61,665 bases of DNA. It comes from Lachnospiraceae bacterium. GTDB taxonomy: Bacteria; Bacillota; Clostridia; Lachnospirales; Lachnospiraceae. The stretch spans positions 1 to 61,665 of the forward strand of contig JAGAQG010000037.1 of the NCBI GenBank assembly GCA_017622875.1. Reading direction: 5' to 3'. Below the pieces are notes generated by a model, which saw only the letters and a list, made by a program, of their open reading frames with translations, searched no databases and was not told the DNA's origin. Below, in pieces: positions 1 to 54,916 of the stretch. The stretch's first letter is position 1; each line of letters starts with the position of its first letter. The translations under genes and the position numbers were made by a program.

Positions 1-45
1 AAAATAAAATATATTCAATCGGCTTCGCCGCAAATTTTTGGCGAT

Positions 46-47831: not shown

Positions 47832-47860
47832 TTGTATTAATTGCAAAAAAAGATTATAAT
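47832..47860 (+). promoter_or_regulatory. Sigma-A promoter of the ATPase-TPR-Hsp70 operon
   Basis: TTGTAT (47832-47837) and a perfect TATAAT (47855-47860) are 17 bases apart. They lie 30 bases before the GTG start of the HTH-ATPase gene, after an AT-rich region with four copies of TAGAAAA. Confidence 0.75.
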
Positions 47861-47889
47861 AAGAGTATCAAAAAATGGGAGGTGTTTCA

Positions 47890-49758
47890 GTGGAATTTTA
47901 TATGACAACGCAAGATGCCGCGGATTTGTGGAAAATATCCACCCGAAGAATCAGCATTCTTTGCAAAGAAGGCAGAATTTCCGGTGCATATAAAGATGGA
48001 AAACAATGGATGATTCCTGTATATGCAGAAAAGCCTGCGGATAATCGTCTAAGGGAAACTCAAAGGTACGGAAGAAAGCCTATGAAAAAACTTCCGCTTC
48101 CAATCGGAATATCAGATTATCGAAAAGCCTCCAGTGAATATTATTACGTAGATAAGACCTTGATGATTCGAGACTTTATTGATGAACGTCCACAGGTTTC
48201 TTTGTTTACACGTCCAAGGCGTTTCGGGAAAACGTTGAATATGGATATGCTTCGCACTTTTTTTGAAATATCAGACGAGGATACCTCTATTTATTTTAGA
48301 AATAAAAAAATCTGGGCGTGCGGAGCAGAATATCAGGCCTACCAGGGAAAATATCCAGTAATTTACGTTACATTTAAAGATGTAAAGTGTGAGACGTGGG
48401 AATCGACCTATGACTTTATTTCGAAGATTTTGAGAAATGAATTTGAAAGACACTCAGAACTTTTGGAAAGTTCTCGCTTAAGTTCTTTTGAAAAGAAATA
48501 TTATATCGATGTTTTAAATGGAAGAGCTAATGAAAATGATATTGCGATGGCTTTTTTAAATCTTTCAAGAATGCTTCATGAACATCATGGGACAGCACCG
48601 ATTATTATTATTGATGAGTATGATACCCCGATTCAGCAGGGACATATGAGAGGATATTATGACCAGATCATTGATTTTATGCGTGCGCTGTTTTCAGGAG
48701 GTTTAAAGGATAATCCGCATCTTTCTTACGGATTTCTGACAGGGATTCTCCGTGTAGCCAAAGAAAGTATTTTCAGCGGGCTGAATAATCTGAAGATTAA
48801 TTCGATTTTAGACAATCGTTATAGTGAATATTTTGGATTTACACCTGCAGAAGTACAGGAAATGTCCATATATTATGGAGTTCCTGAAAAATATGATGAA
48901 ATGTGCGAATGGTATGATGGATATCGATTTGGCAATACTGAAATTTTTAATCCATGGTCAGTGATTGGTTATTTTGGTAACGAGTGTACGCCAAGGGCCT
49001 TTTGGCAGTCTACGGGTAGTAACGATATCATCAGCGAAGTATTGAAACTGGCAACGCCAGAGACGATGGAACGATTAAAAGCTTTAATGCAGGGAGAAGC
49101 GTTCGTTACACATATTGATACAGGAGTAATCTATCCGCAGATACAGAAGAATCCATCTTCTATTTACAGCTTTTTGCTGGTGACAGGCTATCTAAAATTG
49201 GTAAAAGCAGCACAGCCATTTGGAAGTGATTATATGTGTGAAGTCGCACTTCCGAATAAGGAGATTTCCTATGTGTACAGTAAAGAAATACTTTCACAGC
49301 TGGAAAACTTAATCCCGCCATCCGCTGCGATTGCCATTCAGGAAGCAATCTATACGATGGACATTTCTGCATTGCAGAAACGTCTTGAAGAATTTCTGAT
49401 TCAAACAATCAGCTATCATGATGCGGCAAATGAAACATTTTACCACGGGCTGATTTTAGGGCTTTGTGCAATGCTGGATAATTGTTATCGAATTACATCC
49501 AATCGAGAGGCAGGAGATGGCAGATTTGATATTCAGATGAAGCCTCTTGATGGAAAATTGCCGGGAATTATTATAGAATTAAAAGCAGCGAAGGATTATA
49601 GTCAGGAGCAGTTGAATGTACTTGCGCAGAAAGCATTGGAACAGATTGACGAACGCGGGTACGCTAAGGATATGGATTTAGAAGCTGTTTCTGTAATTTT
49701 AAAATATGGAATTGCTTTTTCAGGGAAGAAAGTCTGTATAAAAGCGTCAAAACAATGA
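47890..49758 (+). CDS. HTH-AAA ATPase-PD-(D/E)XK fusion (AAA-ATPase_like/PDDEXK_9)
   Basis: 622 residues from GTG 47890, five bases after GGGAGGTG; the ATG at 47875 overlaps that site. Residues 1-45 form an excisionase/MerR-like helix-turn-helix (MTTQDAADLWKISTRRISIL). Then comes the AAA-ATPase_like domain with RPRRFGKT (108-115) as P-loop and IIIIDEYDTP as Walker B. The C-terminus has a PD-(D/E)XK nuclease-like fold (RFDIQMKP, then IIIELKAAKDY). Function unknown; the family is abundant in gut anaerobes. It has a promoter, no terminator follows, and the TPR gene starts 18 bases later. It could regulate, cut DNA, or be a domesticated mobile-element protein. Confidence 0.88.
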   Translation: MEFYMTTQDAADLWKISTRRISILCKEGRISGAYKDGKQWMIPVYAEKPADNRLRETQRYGRKPMKKLPLPIGISDYRKASSEYYYVDKTLMIRDFIDERPQVSLFTRPRRFGKTLNMDMLRTFFEISDEDTSIYFRNKKIWACGAEYQAYQGKYPVIYVTFKDVKCETWESTYDFISKILRNEFERHSELLESSRLSSFEKKYYIDVLNGRANENDIAMAFLNLSRMLHEHHGTAPIIIIDEYDTPIQQGHMRGYYDQIIDFMRALFSGGLKDNPHLSYGFLTGILRVAKESIFSGLNNLKINSILDNRYSEYFGFTPAEVQEMSIYYGVPEKYDEMCEWYDGYRFGNTEIFNPWSVIGYFGNECTPRAFWQSTGSNDIISEVLKLATPETMERLKALMQGEAFVTHIDTGVIYPQIQKNPSSIYSFLLVTGYLKLVKAAQPFGSDYMCEVALPNKEISYVYSKEILSQLENLIPPSAAIAIQEAIYTMDISALQKRLEEFLIQTISYHDAANETFYHGLILGLCAMLDNCYRITSNREAGDGRFDIQMKPLDGKLPGIIIELKAAKDYSQEQLNVLAQKALEQIDERGYAKDMDLEAVSVILKYGIAFSGKKVCIKASKQ

Positions 49759-49776
49759 TAGAAAGGATGGTCAGTT

Positions 49777-52700
49777 ATGGAAAAAGAACTTATTTTTCAG
49801 ATTTTGGAAATCAATGAATTAAAAGATGAGCGTGCCTTAAAAGCCGCATACATGAACAAATTAAAAGTGACCAACCCGGAAGATGACCCGGAGGGATTCC
49901 GAAGACTCCGTGAAGCTTATGAAAAAGCAGTCGAGCTGCTTCGTAATGCGGAAGAAGAAACAGAAGAGACTGAAAAAACAGACATTGATCTGTGGATTGA
50001 CAAAATGGACGCAGTGTATCAGAATTTCAGAACTCGTGGAGATGTGGAAGCATGGAAAGAACTGCTTTCCGATGAACTCTGCGATAATCTGGATACCTCG
50101 CTTGATGCGAGAAATGCAGCGATTAATTATTTGCTGTCTCATTTTTATCTGCCGAGGGAAATCTGGCAGTGTCTCGATAAAGAATTTGAATTTGTGGCCG
50201 ATTATGACCAGTTAAAGGAAAAGTTTCCGGCAGACTTTTTAGATTATGTGAAATATTATCTCGAAAATCAGTATTGGGTAAAATTTGAGTGTTTTGAAAA
50301 GCGTGATGGAGCAGCTTCTGTCAATGTGGATGCGTACATCCGAACCTATCTGGAGATGAAAAACTTATTGGATCGTGGGGAGTTTGATAATGCTGCACAA
50401 AAATTTGAAGAATTAGAAGCGTATGGTGTCTGGTATCCACTGGAAGACGTAGAGAAAATGCGACTTCTGGAAGCAAAAGGCAATGTGGAAGAAGCCCTAA
50501 AATATGCAGAACGACTGGCAGAGGAAACGGATAAAGAAGAGAGCGTTTATGCTGCTGATAAAAACTATATCGTGCCTGTCTGTGGAAATGTTAAATGGAA
50601 TGCAGGCGATAAAAAAGGTGCCTTTGTCCTGTGGAGCAAATTCCCCGAAAATATTGATTCCAAATTCGGTATGATGAAATATTATCTGGAAAGTGAAGAT
50701 ACCGCAGAAAAAGCGAAGGATATCGCTATGGATATCTGGGAAATGGATGGTACCAACCAGAGGGTAGAAAGTTATGTAACAAAAGCCAACGAACTGATTC
50801 TCGGAAAATTTGAGCGACAGATTCGTGAAGCTGCTACACAAGCAGAAAAAGATAAGATCAGTGTGGAAATGGCATGGTGCTATTTCCAGAATCAGAATGC
50901 GGAAAAAGCAGTAGAAATCCTGGAAGCAATCCATCCAAACGAAGAAATCTATTACAGTTACCACAATTTAAAGGGACGCGCTCTGGCATCTTTAAACAGA
51001 ATGGAAGAAGCGGTTCCGGAACTTCGTCTCTGGTTATCCCTGATTTTGGAAACCGTAGATGATGGCAGTGAAGAGTCAAAGAAACGTCTGCGCAGAAAAG
51101 GCACCGCCTATCTGATGCTGGGCCATTGCCTGATGAAAACAAAACAGTATGATGATGCAGTGGAAATGCTTGCCCGTGCAGAAGAAGAAAATTCTGATCT
51201 GGGAGAAAAATTAAGTGCCATGAACACCATGGCAGAAACTTTCCTTGCCATGAATGCTTTGGAACGTGCGGCGGATAAATGTGATCAGATTATTGCGATT
51301 GAACAGAGATATTATCCTGCATATGTGATTCGTCAGGAAGCCTGTTTCAAAATGCAGAGAGCACAGCAGGTAGTTGACGACTATTATCGTGCCATTGAGA
51401 TTTATCCTGCATTTTATAAGCCATATCTGCTGGCGGCAAAGGTATTTTTCTTATACCGCCAGTATAAAGATGCAAAAGGTGTCATCGACAGAGCGAGAAA
51501 TTCACAGGTGGAATTCTCAGATGATCTGAAACTTCTGGAAGTGAAAATCCTCCGTAATCTCGCGGAAAATAATGAAGATCGAAAAGTACCATTAGAAATC
51601 GTAGAAAAGCTGGCAGAAGAAGTGGACCCGAAAAATACAGATATTGAAGACGTTTCGGAGATTGACTATGAAACGGGTCTGCTCTACTGGGATAATAATT
51701 CCATCGATCTTGCGGTGCAGTATGTGAAAAAGGCCATTGCAAAAAATCCATCCAGAAATCAGTATCTGATGATTCAGGGAGATATGCTCCGTGATCTTAG
51801 AAAGTATGAGGAAGCATTGAATTCCTATAAGGCCGCAAAGGAAGATTATGGCAATACAGCGGGATATTTACATAGTGTTGGATGCTGTTACTCAGGTATG
51901 GGCAATCAGAAAAAAATGGTAGAATGCTTTGAACAGGCTTTGGAACTTGATCCGAATTATCGCGGCTTAAACGAGAGAATTGCGGATTATCACATGGATT
52001 TGTACCGCGAAGACAGTGACGAAGCGCATTTTTACAAAGCAATTGAATATATCAACAAAGAAGTTGCGATTAATGAACGATGCTACAGTCTTGTATGCCG
52101 AGGACTTATGTACATGGATGCAATGCGTCTTTCAGAAGCCATTGCAGATTTTGAAAAGGCATTGACCTATCAGCCGGAAGACTGGGCGGCATATAACAAT
52201 ATGGGATGCTGCTATAAATATCTGGGCAATTATGAGAAGGCCATCGAATGTCTGGAAAAATCGGCAGAAATCGTAGAACGTACAGGCATTGTAAAATCCT
52301 TACCATACAGCAATCTGGCAGACGTTTATGAAATTCTGCGTGATTATCAGAAAGCCATTGACTGCTATGTAAAGGCACTTCGCATTGACCGTGAACGAAT
52401 TCATTTCTATCAGGAAATCGCCGGATTATATCGGAATATGAAAGATTACGACAATGCGGTAAAATATTATAATATTCTTGGAGAAAAACGCGGCGGCAAA
52501 CGTCATCTGATCAAAATCGGAGACTGCTATGCGGTGCAGCGCAATCTGAAAAAAGCAAAAGAATACTACGAACAGGCAATTGCCAAATTTGATAACCTGT
52601 CTTCTGCTTATGATATTTACAATGAATATGCGGAGCATATGGTTGATATTTTTGAATATAAAGATGCCATCAAACGTCTGGACCAGATTGAAAAATCAGT

Positions 52701-53154
52701 GGCAAAGATGGGAACTGAGATTTCTCCAAGAGTTCAGGCAAGACACTGGCTGATCAAAGCACGTGCGTACTACATGCTTCACAAATCCGCGAAAGCGGCA
52801 GAATGTGCAAAGAAAGCAAAAGAATTCTATCTAACAGGCGCAGTATCCGAAGAAGCATTTGTAAATTATGCAATGGAACGCCCATGGCGTATGGCACGTA
52901 TCGGAGAATGCTATATGTACATGGGACAGTCTGAAAAGGCAATGGAAATGTTCCGAAAAATGTCAGGCTGTGAACGTTGTACTCACTGCAGAGAGCCGAA
53001 ATGCTATGAAGGAATCCGTGATATGGGAATTTACTATTATGGTCTGAAGGAGTATGACAAAGCATTGTCCTACTATGAGCAGGCGCTTGAAATCTGCCCG
53101 ACAGATATAGAATTGCAGCTTGCAATCGCGAAATTACGTAAGGAGATTAAATAA
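49777..53154 (+). CDS. Large TPR protein with degenerate J-like N-terminus
   Basis: 1125 residues. Residues 1-55 look like a J-domain (helix LKAAYMNKLKV, then FRRLREAYEKA), but where HPD is expected it reads TNPEDDPEG. The rest is made of tetratricopeptide repeats throughout, strongest at about 660-970 (for example DWAAYNNMGCCYKYLGNYEKAIE). Near 1065 is a Cys cluster, CERCTHCREPKC, a possible metal site. No signal peptide or membrane span. AAAGGATGG precedes the ATG. The Hsp70 gene starts three bases after its stop, so the two proteins almost surely work together as co-chaperone and chaperone. Client unknown. Confidence 0.88.
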   Translation: MEKELIFQILEINELKDERALKAAYMNKLKVTNPEDDPEGFRRLREAYEKAVELLRNAEEETEETEKTDIDLWIDKMDAVYQNFRTRGDVEAWKELLSDELCDNLDTSLDARNAAINYLLSHFYLPREIWQCLDKEFEFVADYDQLKEKFPADFLDYVKYYLENQYWVKFECFEKRDGAASVNVDAYIRTYLEMKNLLDRGEFDNAAQKFEELEAYGVWYPLEDVEKMRLLEAKGNVEEALKYAERLAEETDKEESVYAADKNYIVPVCGNVKWNAGDKKGAFVLWSKFPENIDSKFGMMKYYLESEDTAEKAKDIAMDIWEMDGTNQRVESYVTKANELILGKFERQIREAATQAEKDKISVEMAWCYFQNQNAEKAVEILEAIHPNEEIYYSYHNLKGRALASLNRMEEAVPELRLWLSLILETVDDGSEESKKRLRRKGTAYLMLGHCLMKTKQYDDAVEMLARAEEENSDLGEKLSAMNTMAETFLAMNALERAADKCDQIIAIEQRYYPAYVIRQEACFKMQRAQQVVDDYYRAIEIYPAFYKPYLLAAKVFFLYRQYKDAKGVIDRARNSQVEFSDDLKLLEVKILRNLAENNEDRKVPLEIVEKLAEEVDPKNTDIEDVSEIDYETGLLYWDNNSIDLAVQYVKKAIAKNPSRNQYLMIQGDMLRDLRKYEEALNSYKAAKEDYGNTAGYLHSVGCCYSGMGNQKKMVECFEQALELDPNYRGLNERIADYHMDLYREDSDEAHFYKAIEYINKEVAINERCYSLVCRGLMYMDAMRLSEAIADFEKALTYQPEDWAAYNNMGCCYKYLGNYEKAIECLEKSAEIVERTGIVKSLPYSNLADVYEILRDYQKAIDCYVKALRIDRERIHFYQEIAGLYRNMKDYDNAVKYYNILGEKRGGKRHLIKIGDCYAVQRNLKKAKEYYEQAIAKFDNLSSAYDIYNEYAEHMVDIFEYKDAIKRLDQIEKSVAKMGTEISPRVQARHWLIKARAYYMLHKSAKAAECAKKAKEFYLTGAVSEEAFVNYAMERPWRMARIGECYMYMGQSEKAMEMFRKMSGCERCTHCREPKCYEGIRDMGIYYYGLKEYDKALSYYEQALEICPTDIELQLAIAKLRKEIK

Positions 53155-53157
53155 TCT

Positions 53158-54852
53158 ATGATCATAGGAATTGACCTTGGCACGACCAACAGTCTGGCAG
53201 CTTACTATACAGAAGATGGCCCGAAGATCATCCCGAACCGTCTGGGAAAACGAATGACGCCATCTGTAGTAAGTTTAGACGAAGAAGGTCAGATTTTAGT
53301 GGGAGAATCAGCGGCAGAGCAGATGCTGCTGACTCCGGACAGAGGTGCTTCGGTTTTTAAACGAAGCATGGGAAGCGGTAAAAAATTCAATCTGGGAGAT
53401 AAGAGCTTTACAGCAGAGGAACTCTCCTCCTTTGTTCTGCGTGCCTTAAAAGAAGATGCGGAACAATATCTTGGGGAACCGGTGACGGAAGCGGTCATCA
53501 GCGTGCCGGCCTACTTTAACGATGCCAGAAGACGTGCGACCAAACGTGCCGGAGAGCTGGCAGGATTAAAGGTGGAGCGAATCATCAGTGAACCGACAGC
53601 GGCAGCCATTGCGTATGGGCTTTGGCAGCACAAAGGGCAGGCAAGATTTCTTGTATTCGACCTTGGCGGAGGTACTTTTGATGTCTCAATTTTGGAACTG
53701 TACGATACAATTCTGGAAGTTCATGCGGTAGCAGGGGACAACTTCCTCGGTGGCGAAGATTTTACTGCTGTATTGGAAAAAATGTTTTACGCGAAACATT
53801 CTTCCATAAGTCCGTTTACCTTAAATGAAAAAGTAAGAAAACATGTGCGCAAGCAGGCGGAAATCTGTAAGCTTGGTTTTGCAAACTCCAAAGTCTCCGA
53901 AATGAAATGTAACATTGATGGAGAAGAATACAGCTACAAAGTAAGTCTGGAGGACTATGAAGAGGCCTGCGAAGAGCTTCTTGAGAAAATTCGCCAGCCA
54001 ATCAAACGAAGCTTAAAGGATGCACATATCCGATTATCAGATATTGATAAAGTCGTTCTGGTGGGTGGGGCTACAAAATCACCAGTCATCCGAAAATTTG
54101 CAGCCAAATTATTCCATATGATTCCGGATACTTCCATGAACCCGGATGAGACAGTGGCGCTTGGCGCAGCCATTCAGGGGGCCATGAAGGAACGTCGGGA
54201 CGGAATCAAAGAAGTAATCCTGACCGACGTATGTCCATTCACCCTTGGAACTGAGGTGGTGCGGGAATATGCACAGCACCGTTTTGAAGATGGGATATTT
54301 TTGCCGATCATTGAAAGAAACACCGTGATTCCGGCCAGCCGCACAGAAACACTCTATACGGTGCGGGATGACCAGACAAAAATTCGTGTTCATGTATTAC
54401 AGGGAGAAAGCCGCTTTGCGGTAAACAATCTTTCTCTGGGAGAATTAATGATTGATATTCCTGCAAACAAAGCCGGTGCCGAATCGGTAGATGTTACTTA
54501 TACCTATGACATCAACTCCATTCTGGAAGTAGAAGTAAAGGTAAACTCTACCGGTAAAAAGCTTCGTCAGGTATTCAAAGATCGAAATCTGGAAATGACA
54601 GAGGAAGAGATCGAAGAACGTCTGGAAACATTGTCTTACTTAAAAATCCACCCACGTGACAAGGAAGAAAACAAATTCCTTTTACTTCGCGGTGAGCGAA
54701 TTTATGAAGAAAGTCTCGGTATGAAACGTGTGCAGGTGGAAAGAGTTCTTAGAAACTTCGAACAGGCACTTAATTCCTACGATGGAGAAAAAATAGCAGA
54801 AGCAAAGAAAGAACTGATCGACTTTTTAGAAGAAGCAGATGAGTGGGAATAG
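53158..54852 (+). CDS. hscC: HscC-type Hsp70 chaperone
   Basis: 564 residues. ATPase domain: phosphate loop GIDLGTTNSLAAYY, SVPAYFND, SEPTAAAIAYG, FDLGGGTFDVS and VGGATKSPVI. The substrate-binding domain follows from about 370 (VCPFTLGTEV). The helical lid is short and the DnaK-type EEVD-like tail is absent. The size and sequence fit HscC-like Hsp70s, not DnaK. ATG comes three bases after the TPR gene; AAGGAG lies inside the end of that gene, so translation is probably coupled. No grpE is nearby. It ends at a terminator. Confidence 0.92.
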   Translation: MIIGIDLGTTNSLAAYYTEDGPKIIPNRLGKRMTPSVVSLDEEGQILVGESAAEQMLLTPDRGASVFKRSMGSGKKFNLGDKSFTAEELSSFVLRALKEDAEQYLGEPVTEAVISVPAYFNDARRRATKRAGELAGLKVERIISEPTAAAIAYGLWQHKGQARFLVFDLGGGTFDVSILELYDTILEVHAVAGDNFLGGEDFTAVLEKMFYAKHSSISPFTLNEKVRKHVRKQAEICKLGFANSKVSEMKCNIDGEEYSYKVSLEDYEEACEELLEKIRQPIKRSLKDAHIRLSDIDKVVLVGGATKSPVIRKFAAKLFHMIPDTSMNPDETVALGAAIQGAMKERRDGIKEVILTDVCPFTLGTEVVREYAQHRFEDGIFLPIIERNTVIPASRTETLYTVRDDQTKIRVHVLQGESRFAVNNLSLGELMIDIPANKAGAESVDVTYTYDINSILEVEVKVNSTGKKLRQVFKDRNLEMTEEEIEERLETLSYLKIHPRDKEENKFLLLRGERIYEESLGMKRVQVERVLRNFEQALNSYDGEKIAEAKKELIDFLEEADEWE

Positions 54853-54865
54853 ATACAGATATAAC

Positions 54866-54904
54866 AAAAGCATGGGAAACAAAAATAGTTCCCATGCTTT
54901 TTAA
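54866..54904. terminator. Bidirectional intrinsic terminator
   Basis: AAAAGCATGGGAAC pairs with GTTCCCATGCTTTT. It ends the chaperone operon and the convergent ribU gene. Confidence 0.93.
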
Positions 54905-54916
54905 AGTTGTGCGTAT

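Follow-up and report, generated by a model that had tools for sequence, protein, structure and literature searches.

The closest described relatives of the system studied here are the Escherichia coli Hsp70 HscC and its tail-anchored J proteins DjlC and DjlB (475-483 amino acids, aa). Among the J proteins tested, HscC was stimulated by DjlC alone, and deletion of hscC leads to Cd2+ sensitivity (PMC8215388). In DjlC the canonical HPD triplet of J domains is replaced by HPE (PMC13254874), and our own sequence comparison finds HPE in both DjlC and DjlB. According to the same 2026 review, HPE seems to be the sole tolerated replacement of HPD, while the origin of other deviations, by accident or by selection, is called enigmatic (PMC13254874). 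Here we analysed a stretch of 61,665 nucleotides from a Lachnospiraceae bacterium (contig JAGAQG010000037.1 of assembly GCA_017622875.1; the whole stretch is called the window), in which the gene for a giant protein, made of an N-terminal J domain and a long body of tetratricopeptide repeats (TPR), is directly followed by the gene for an HscC-type Hsp70 (Table 1). Judged by its sequence, this pair is a variant form of the HscC-DjlC machine of E. coli, since in both the Hsp70 is HscC-type, the J domain is DjlC-like, the D of HPD has become E and the two genes are neighbours. It differs as follows: the J domain of the window carries NPE, not HPE; the giant is probably a soluble TPR protein with a cysteine motif, whereas DjlC and DjlB are tail-anchored; and the giant and Hsp70 genes follow one another on the same strand, whereas djlC and hscC are convergent. 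Our literature searches, which covered mostly open-access papers and included some broad queries, found no published description of a pair of HscC and a TPR J protein.

The Hsp70 of the window matches the Pfam HSP70 family. Against E. coli HscC it scores 446 bits, with 44% identity over 559 aa, and the scores against E. coli DnaK (315 bits) and HscA (248 bits) are lower. A tree of 63 Hsp70s places it beside HscC, on a branch with 100/100 support that separates both from DnaK and HscA, although the references are few and the tree carries a long-branch warning. Its length of 564 aa lies within the 550-580 aa given for HscC (PMC8215388), and the GrpE signature (DnaK 290-295) is deleted, as seen from an alignment gap and as listed for HscC in that source. 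At EVVREYAQHRFEDG, in loop L1,2 of the beta domain of the substrate-binding domain, there is an insertion of ~9 residues relative to DnaK, the stated range for HscC being 4-8 (PMC8215388). Deletions of DnaK residues 76-101 and of the D211 loop (gap at 208/211) are also present, but neither is diagnostic of HscC because the genome's own DnaK has both; the D211 loop is missing from HscA as well. In the helix B region of the lid, where HscC has a nine-residue deletion, the alignment of the window Hsp70 is ambiguous. On homology and tree position, the protein is an HscC-type Hsp70, and here the original prediction, made from the DNA before any comparison, was right. The window genome has a separate DnaK-DnaJ locus, and its contigs C6 and C9 (L023-L025) hold contig-end fragments of a further DnaK-like Hsp70.

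Residues R167, N170, D393 and T417 of DnaK presumably face the J domain. R167 and D393 (DnaK numbering) are kept in 59/59 aligned Hsp70s, while most copies have S in place of N170 and V in place of T417; the Hsp70 of L189 is absent from this alignment of 59 sequences and from the tree. Strict co-variation of NPE with N170S was considered and rejected, as S stands beside HPE in L068, L103 and L109, and N beside NPE in L086, L090 and L113. No paper linking R167, N170 and HPD surfaced in our literature search.

The N-terminus of the giant resembles the J domains of the E. coli partners of HscC: residues 7-67 share 42.6% identity with DjlC (61 aa, E 5e-11), and residues 7-70 share 32.8% with DjlB (E 6e-9). 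Pfam reports TPR_1 (E 3.6e-51) and a sub-threshold DnaJ match (E 0.05) in the window giant. A profile built from 61 homologous N-termini matches J-domain structures of DnaJ (E 1e-7) with NPE aligned over HPD, and PF00226 is matched by 61/61 of these N-termini at E<=1, the window member reaching 0.0017, which falls short of the curated cut-off. In the structure model, helices span residues 2-10, 18-31 and 38-60, NPE lies in a loop, and the remainder is a near all-helical solenoid. From these comparisons, the giant is a J protein with a DjlC-like J domain at its N-terminus, in line with the "J-like" of the original prediction.

The two genes are kept together in many relatives. Our family sample comprised 299 Lachnospiraceae genomes, one per genus, with the window genome as the sole representative of its own; presence was called at E<=1e-15 for the TPR giant, E<=1e-150 for the HscC-type Hsp70 and E<=1e-40 for the ATPase family discussed below. 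The giant and the Hsp70 each occur in 49 genomes, and 48 genomes have both (Fisher p ~2e-53). In the genome with the giant only (G221) the Hsp70 lies in pieces beside it, and in the genome with the Hsp70 only (G167) the contig breaks off within the giant, leaving a TPR-like end with CDHCGNCHYAQC directly before the Hsp70. We then considered 59 places of the giant, namely 56 fetched stretches, two loci from a scan of genome contigs (L029 and L030) and the window, with the match rows of each giant merged by hand. The Hsp70 is directly downstream at 44 of them, with a gap of -17 to 156 bases; it is ~3 kb downstream in L091 and L097 and upstream in L109. No third gene recurs beside the pair, the largest neighbour family reaching 5 of the 44 loci. 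This conserved linkage argues that the giant and the HscC-type Hsp70 are a dedicated pair, in agreement with what had been proposed from the window alone.

Some loci depart from the common arrangement. In L099 (7550-12527) and L101 (7447-11994) genes are in pieces, the giant in both and the Hsp70 in L099, with the order kept, reflecting either assembly error or decay. In L146 (3887-10892, G147:C55) a giant with the triplet RPD is flanked by two Hsp70 genes, the extra one (593 aa) being very divergent, and its genome, G147, encodes four giants and at least three HscC-type Hsp70s. The Hsp70s of G251 (L110, L112, L147) and G292 (L109) are sisters; their giants carry HPE, and the usual order of giant, then Hsp70, is absent.

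NPE is the common state of this J domain. The triplet was read in 61 giants (the 59 places, L145 and L146), after removal of one false J-pattern match (L091 2514-3203) and with L081 read as NPE by eye, giving NPE in 53, HPE in 6, NPV in 1 and RPD in 1; this sample leans towards the window, because 59 of its members were found via the window giant and 2 beside Hsp70s. By hand count, 45 of the 49 genera that have a giant contain at least one NPE copy. When 295 genomes of the order were searched with the J profile, which is itself NPE-rich, 34 matched at E<=1e-12, and 29 of the 30 loci fetched were readable (NPE 23, HPE 5, SPE 1). Six of these 29 are from genomes already counted in the family sample, and the 17 from other families divide into NPE 11, HPE 5 and SPE 1. 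On the Hsp70 tree labelled by partner triplet (55 rows, the label of L147 being taken from the unlinked giants of the same genome), the HPE label needs four changes; if the tree is rooted by the outside sequences, this pattern reads as one early change from H to N followed by three returns. Codons for Asn and His are one base apart, and a return from NPE to HPE should therefore be easy; yet NPE was retained, which suggests that NPE works.

The giants are long proteins (860-1340 aa in 58 long copies). A 19-residue stretch with a mean hydropathy of at least 1.6 is absent from 57 of these copies, and the remaining one reaches 1.6; the highest 19-residue value is 0.93 in the window giant, compared with 2.39 and 1.99 in the tail anchors of DjlB and DjlC. 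As no strongly hydrophobic stretch is present, unlike in the tail-anchored proteins, the giant is probably soluble. Towards the C-terminal end, 50 of the 58 long copies have the pattern C-x2-C-x4-C within their last 150 residues (shuffled mean 0.5), followed in 46 of them by x-[E/D]. It is mostly located 53-63 residues before the end of the protein, and the pattern occurs elsewhere in 1 of the 58 copies. In the window giant it comprises residues 1068-1076, with an additional Cys at 1065; the model, whose confidence is low in this stretch, places it after helix 1052-1063 and before helix 1077-1089. Scans with Pfam and NCBIfam gave no model specific to this motif, whose cysteines may bind metal. 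Docking of the TPR body on an EEVD-like Hsp70 tail was considered and rejected, as a conserved tail motif was not found.

TPR and a J domain are also combined in single Hsp70 co-chaperones of eukaryotes, such as DnaJC7 and DnaJC3/ERdj6 (PMC13254874). Unlike these, the giant has its J domain at the N-terminus, many more repeats, NPE and an HscC partner, and the Hsp70 has no EEVD-like tail. Elsewhere in the phylum, a J protein is encoded beside an HscC-type Hsp70 at five of six places outside the order (G380, G506, G336, G621 and G626), and at the sixth (G645) there is no J protein beside the Hsp70. These pairs are similar to that of the window in their adjacency but differ in order (Hsp70, then J protein), in triplet (HPE in 4/5, with no clear triplet in G621) and in the J proteins themselves, which have other C-terminal bodies, are 304-958 aa long and lack C-x2-C-x(3..6)-C in 5/5.

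We consider it probable that the two proteins work as a private Hsp70 machine: HscC would be driven by the NPE J domain of its own partner, and the clients would be chosen by the solenoid. The J domain (helix II, NPE loop and helix III) would recruit HscC and trigger ATP hydrolysis, as DjlC does for E. coli HscC, and we propose this stimulation although both the H and the D of HPD are replaced. The TPR solenoid of ~1000 residues would select or hold clients in the cytosol, thereby replacing the membrane anchor of DjlB and DjlC, and the C-terminal C-x2-C-x4-C loop may bind metal or sense the redox state and so set the choice of client. GrpE would probably be dispensable, as was inferred in print for HscC. 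The fuller proposal, that a naturally His-less NPE J domain drives its own HscC and is coupled through the TPR solenoid to a metal or redox sensor at the C-x2-C-x4-C loop, is a more tentative one, which we regard as possible but somewhat doubtful. If it were true, the pair would be an Hsp70 machine that is client-specific and can be switched, and it would break the rule by which a J domain needs HPD or, at the most, HPE. The J protein has NPE as its common state, is tied to one dedicated Hsp70 and apparently returned to HPE several times; the question of accident or selection thus becomes testable with one protein pair. In addition, HscC, whose cellular job is unsettled, gains a partner that is probably soluble and has a conserved Cys motif, a finding that can be compared with the Cd2+ phenotype of E. 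coli.

Several observations weigh against a private machine driven by NPE. The triplets QPD and HPN abolish stimulation (PMC13254874), and a J domain without H may therefore be inactive. On the Hsp70, N170S is out of step with the triplet of the partner, and no conserved EEVD-like tail was seen by eye among the tails of the partner Hsp70s. The confidence of the structure model is middling (3 sequences; predicted local distance difference test, pLDDT, 69.5; predicted template modelling score, pTM, 0.38), and 8 of the 58 long giants have no Cys motif. Finally, for 10 of the 59 giants the fetched stretch contains no Hsp70, and G251 encodes its giants and its Hsp70 at unlinked sites.

The inactive QPD and HPN also lend weight to the alternative that fares best, in which NPE marks a pseudo-J domain: it would bind HscC, or a second J protein, but would not stimulate ATP hydrolysis (compare Pam16 towards Pam18), so that the giant would act as a regulator or a tether and HscC would be driven by a different J protein. 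Consistent with this, NPE has lost the H besides the D. However, the HscC partners DjlB and DjlC carry HPE, which argues that the change from D to E is tolerated, and the three apparent returns from NPE to HPE took place within the same architecture, suggesting that the triplets are interchangeable. Moreover, no further gene recurs beside the pair, a result that concerns neighbourhoods and not J proteins elsewhere in the genomes. We therefore judge a pseudo-J domain unlikely, though it deserves to be kept in mind. Far less credible is that the giant and HscC are functionally independent of each other and owe their linkage to shared regulation alone. While the ten giants without a nearby Hsp70 would fit such an explanation, they belong to eight genomes, of which seven (G102, G291, G086, G176, G009, G127 and G147) have a linked pair elsewhere, and a J domain beside an Hsp70 denotes functional pairing in other systems.

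The gene directly upstream of the pair was examined as a possible third component. By Pfam, its product combines HTH_17 (26.3 bits, cut-off 27), AAA-ATPase_like and PDDEXK_9. Like DUF1703/AAA-ATPase_like-PDDEXK_9 proteins (PMC1913061), it has the family domains, and the window copy carries RPRRFGKT (Walker A), DEYD and a D...ExK stretch; it differs in the extra N-terminal HTH_17, which relatives in the same family have too. A sequence search of the 59 stretches found this ATPase gene upstream of the pair in the window only (1/59 regions), with upstream DNA visible at 57 of the 59 places because the contigs of L068 and L073 begin within ~200 bases of the giant. In L060 a distant relative (23% identity) lies ~5 kb downstream of the pair. 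The ATPase family is dispersed over 116 of the 299 genomes, and its association with the giant is not significant (24/49 genomes with the giant vs 92/250 without; Fisher p = 0.11). The HTH-fused ATPase is a subfamily found, among the matches listed, in at least 33 genomes (by eye; match starting at or before query residue 9), of which 4 also have the giant: the window's own, G046, G108 and G306, the last three with giant and HTH-type ATPase on separate contigs. G176, whose match begins at residue 15, was left out of this count; its giants are on other contigs too. The nearest relative among the matches listed (74% identity) is in G129, which has neither the giant nor an HscC-type Hsp70. Ten surroundings of HTH-type copies, some of them ending at contig ends, have no common neighbour by eye, and the pair is in none of them.

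Given its occurrence upstream of the pair in 1/59 regions, its scattered family, the lack of a significant association and a close relative in a genome without the pair, the ATPase gene looks like an unrelated passenger before the pair, and its arrival there may have been recent. This distribution fits one option of the original prediction, a chance insertion in front of an older two-gene unit. It gives no support to the ATPase as a client, a regulator or a third component, and a widespread pair (48/299) with the ATPase gene in front of it only here is the outcome that the original prediction itself had named as refuting. A chaperone pair that holds the HTH-ATPase-nuclease as its client or effector, perhaps in defence, is thus highly improbable, even though the ATPase gene shares the strand of the pair at an 18-base distance behind a single upstream promoter-like site, RADAR, PARIS1 and Old-tin proteins are listed with PF09820 (PMC10952713) and the ATPase is in non-significant excess in genomes with the giant. 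A three-gene ATPase-TPR-Hsp70 system was accordingly rejected, and so was an identity as a defence system, no PADLOC model matching the ATPase at E<=0.1. PADLOC gave two weak matches for the giant (best 1.2e-6, TPR) and one for the Hsp70 (4e-4), which we read as generic. The HTH_17-AAA-ATPase_like/PDDEXK_9 fusion recurs in the family as a seemingly solitary gene.

Table 1. Features of the locus, in positions of the window
Feature	Position	Strand	Remarks
Promoter-like site	47832..47860	+	TTGTAT-17-TATAAT; upstream of the ATPase gene
ATPase gene	47890..49758	+	HTH_17, AAA-ATPase_like (PF09820) and PDDEXK_9 (PF08011); looks like a passenger, outside the conserved pair
Giant J-TPR protein	49777..53154	+	1125 aa; DjlC-like J domain, then TPR solenoid
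J domain of the giant	49777..49956	+	residues 1-60; NPE (residues 33-35) at the HPD position
C-terminal Cys motif of the giant	52978..53010	+	residues 1068-1078 (CTHCREPKCYE); family pattern C-x2-C-x4-C-x-[E/D]
HscC-type Hsp70	53158..54852	+	564 aa; assigned by identity to E. coli HscC and by the tree
Intrinsic terminator	54868..54901	+	3' of the pair; hairpin, by RNA fold

The layout of the locus agrees with the original prediction in its three same-strand genes and the terminator at their end. The three open reading frames of the + strand (47875-49758, 49777-53154 and 53158-54852) are separated by 18 and 3 bases, the ATPase gene probably starting at GTG 47890 (with GGGAGG in front, by eye) rather than at ATG 47875. 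The terminator hairpin is strong, with an RNA fold of 54850-54910 at -18.4 kcal/mol (z -5.96). The promoter-like site is present where one strong promoter had been placed, but "strong" is generous: its -10 hexamer is perfect, whereas the -35 matches at only 3/6 positions, below the 4/6 or more that our general promoter scan demanded in each hexamer. It is one of three TTGNNN-(16..18)-TATAAT sites in the window, counting both strands. Weak promoter-like sites are located within the ATPase gene, for example at 49677-49705, and the TPR-Hsp70 pair may thus have a transcription start of its own; the ATPase gene, in turn, may now share or supply the promoter of the pair. In L029 and L030 the genes before the pair were named by eye as HydF-like, a regulator and transporter-like.

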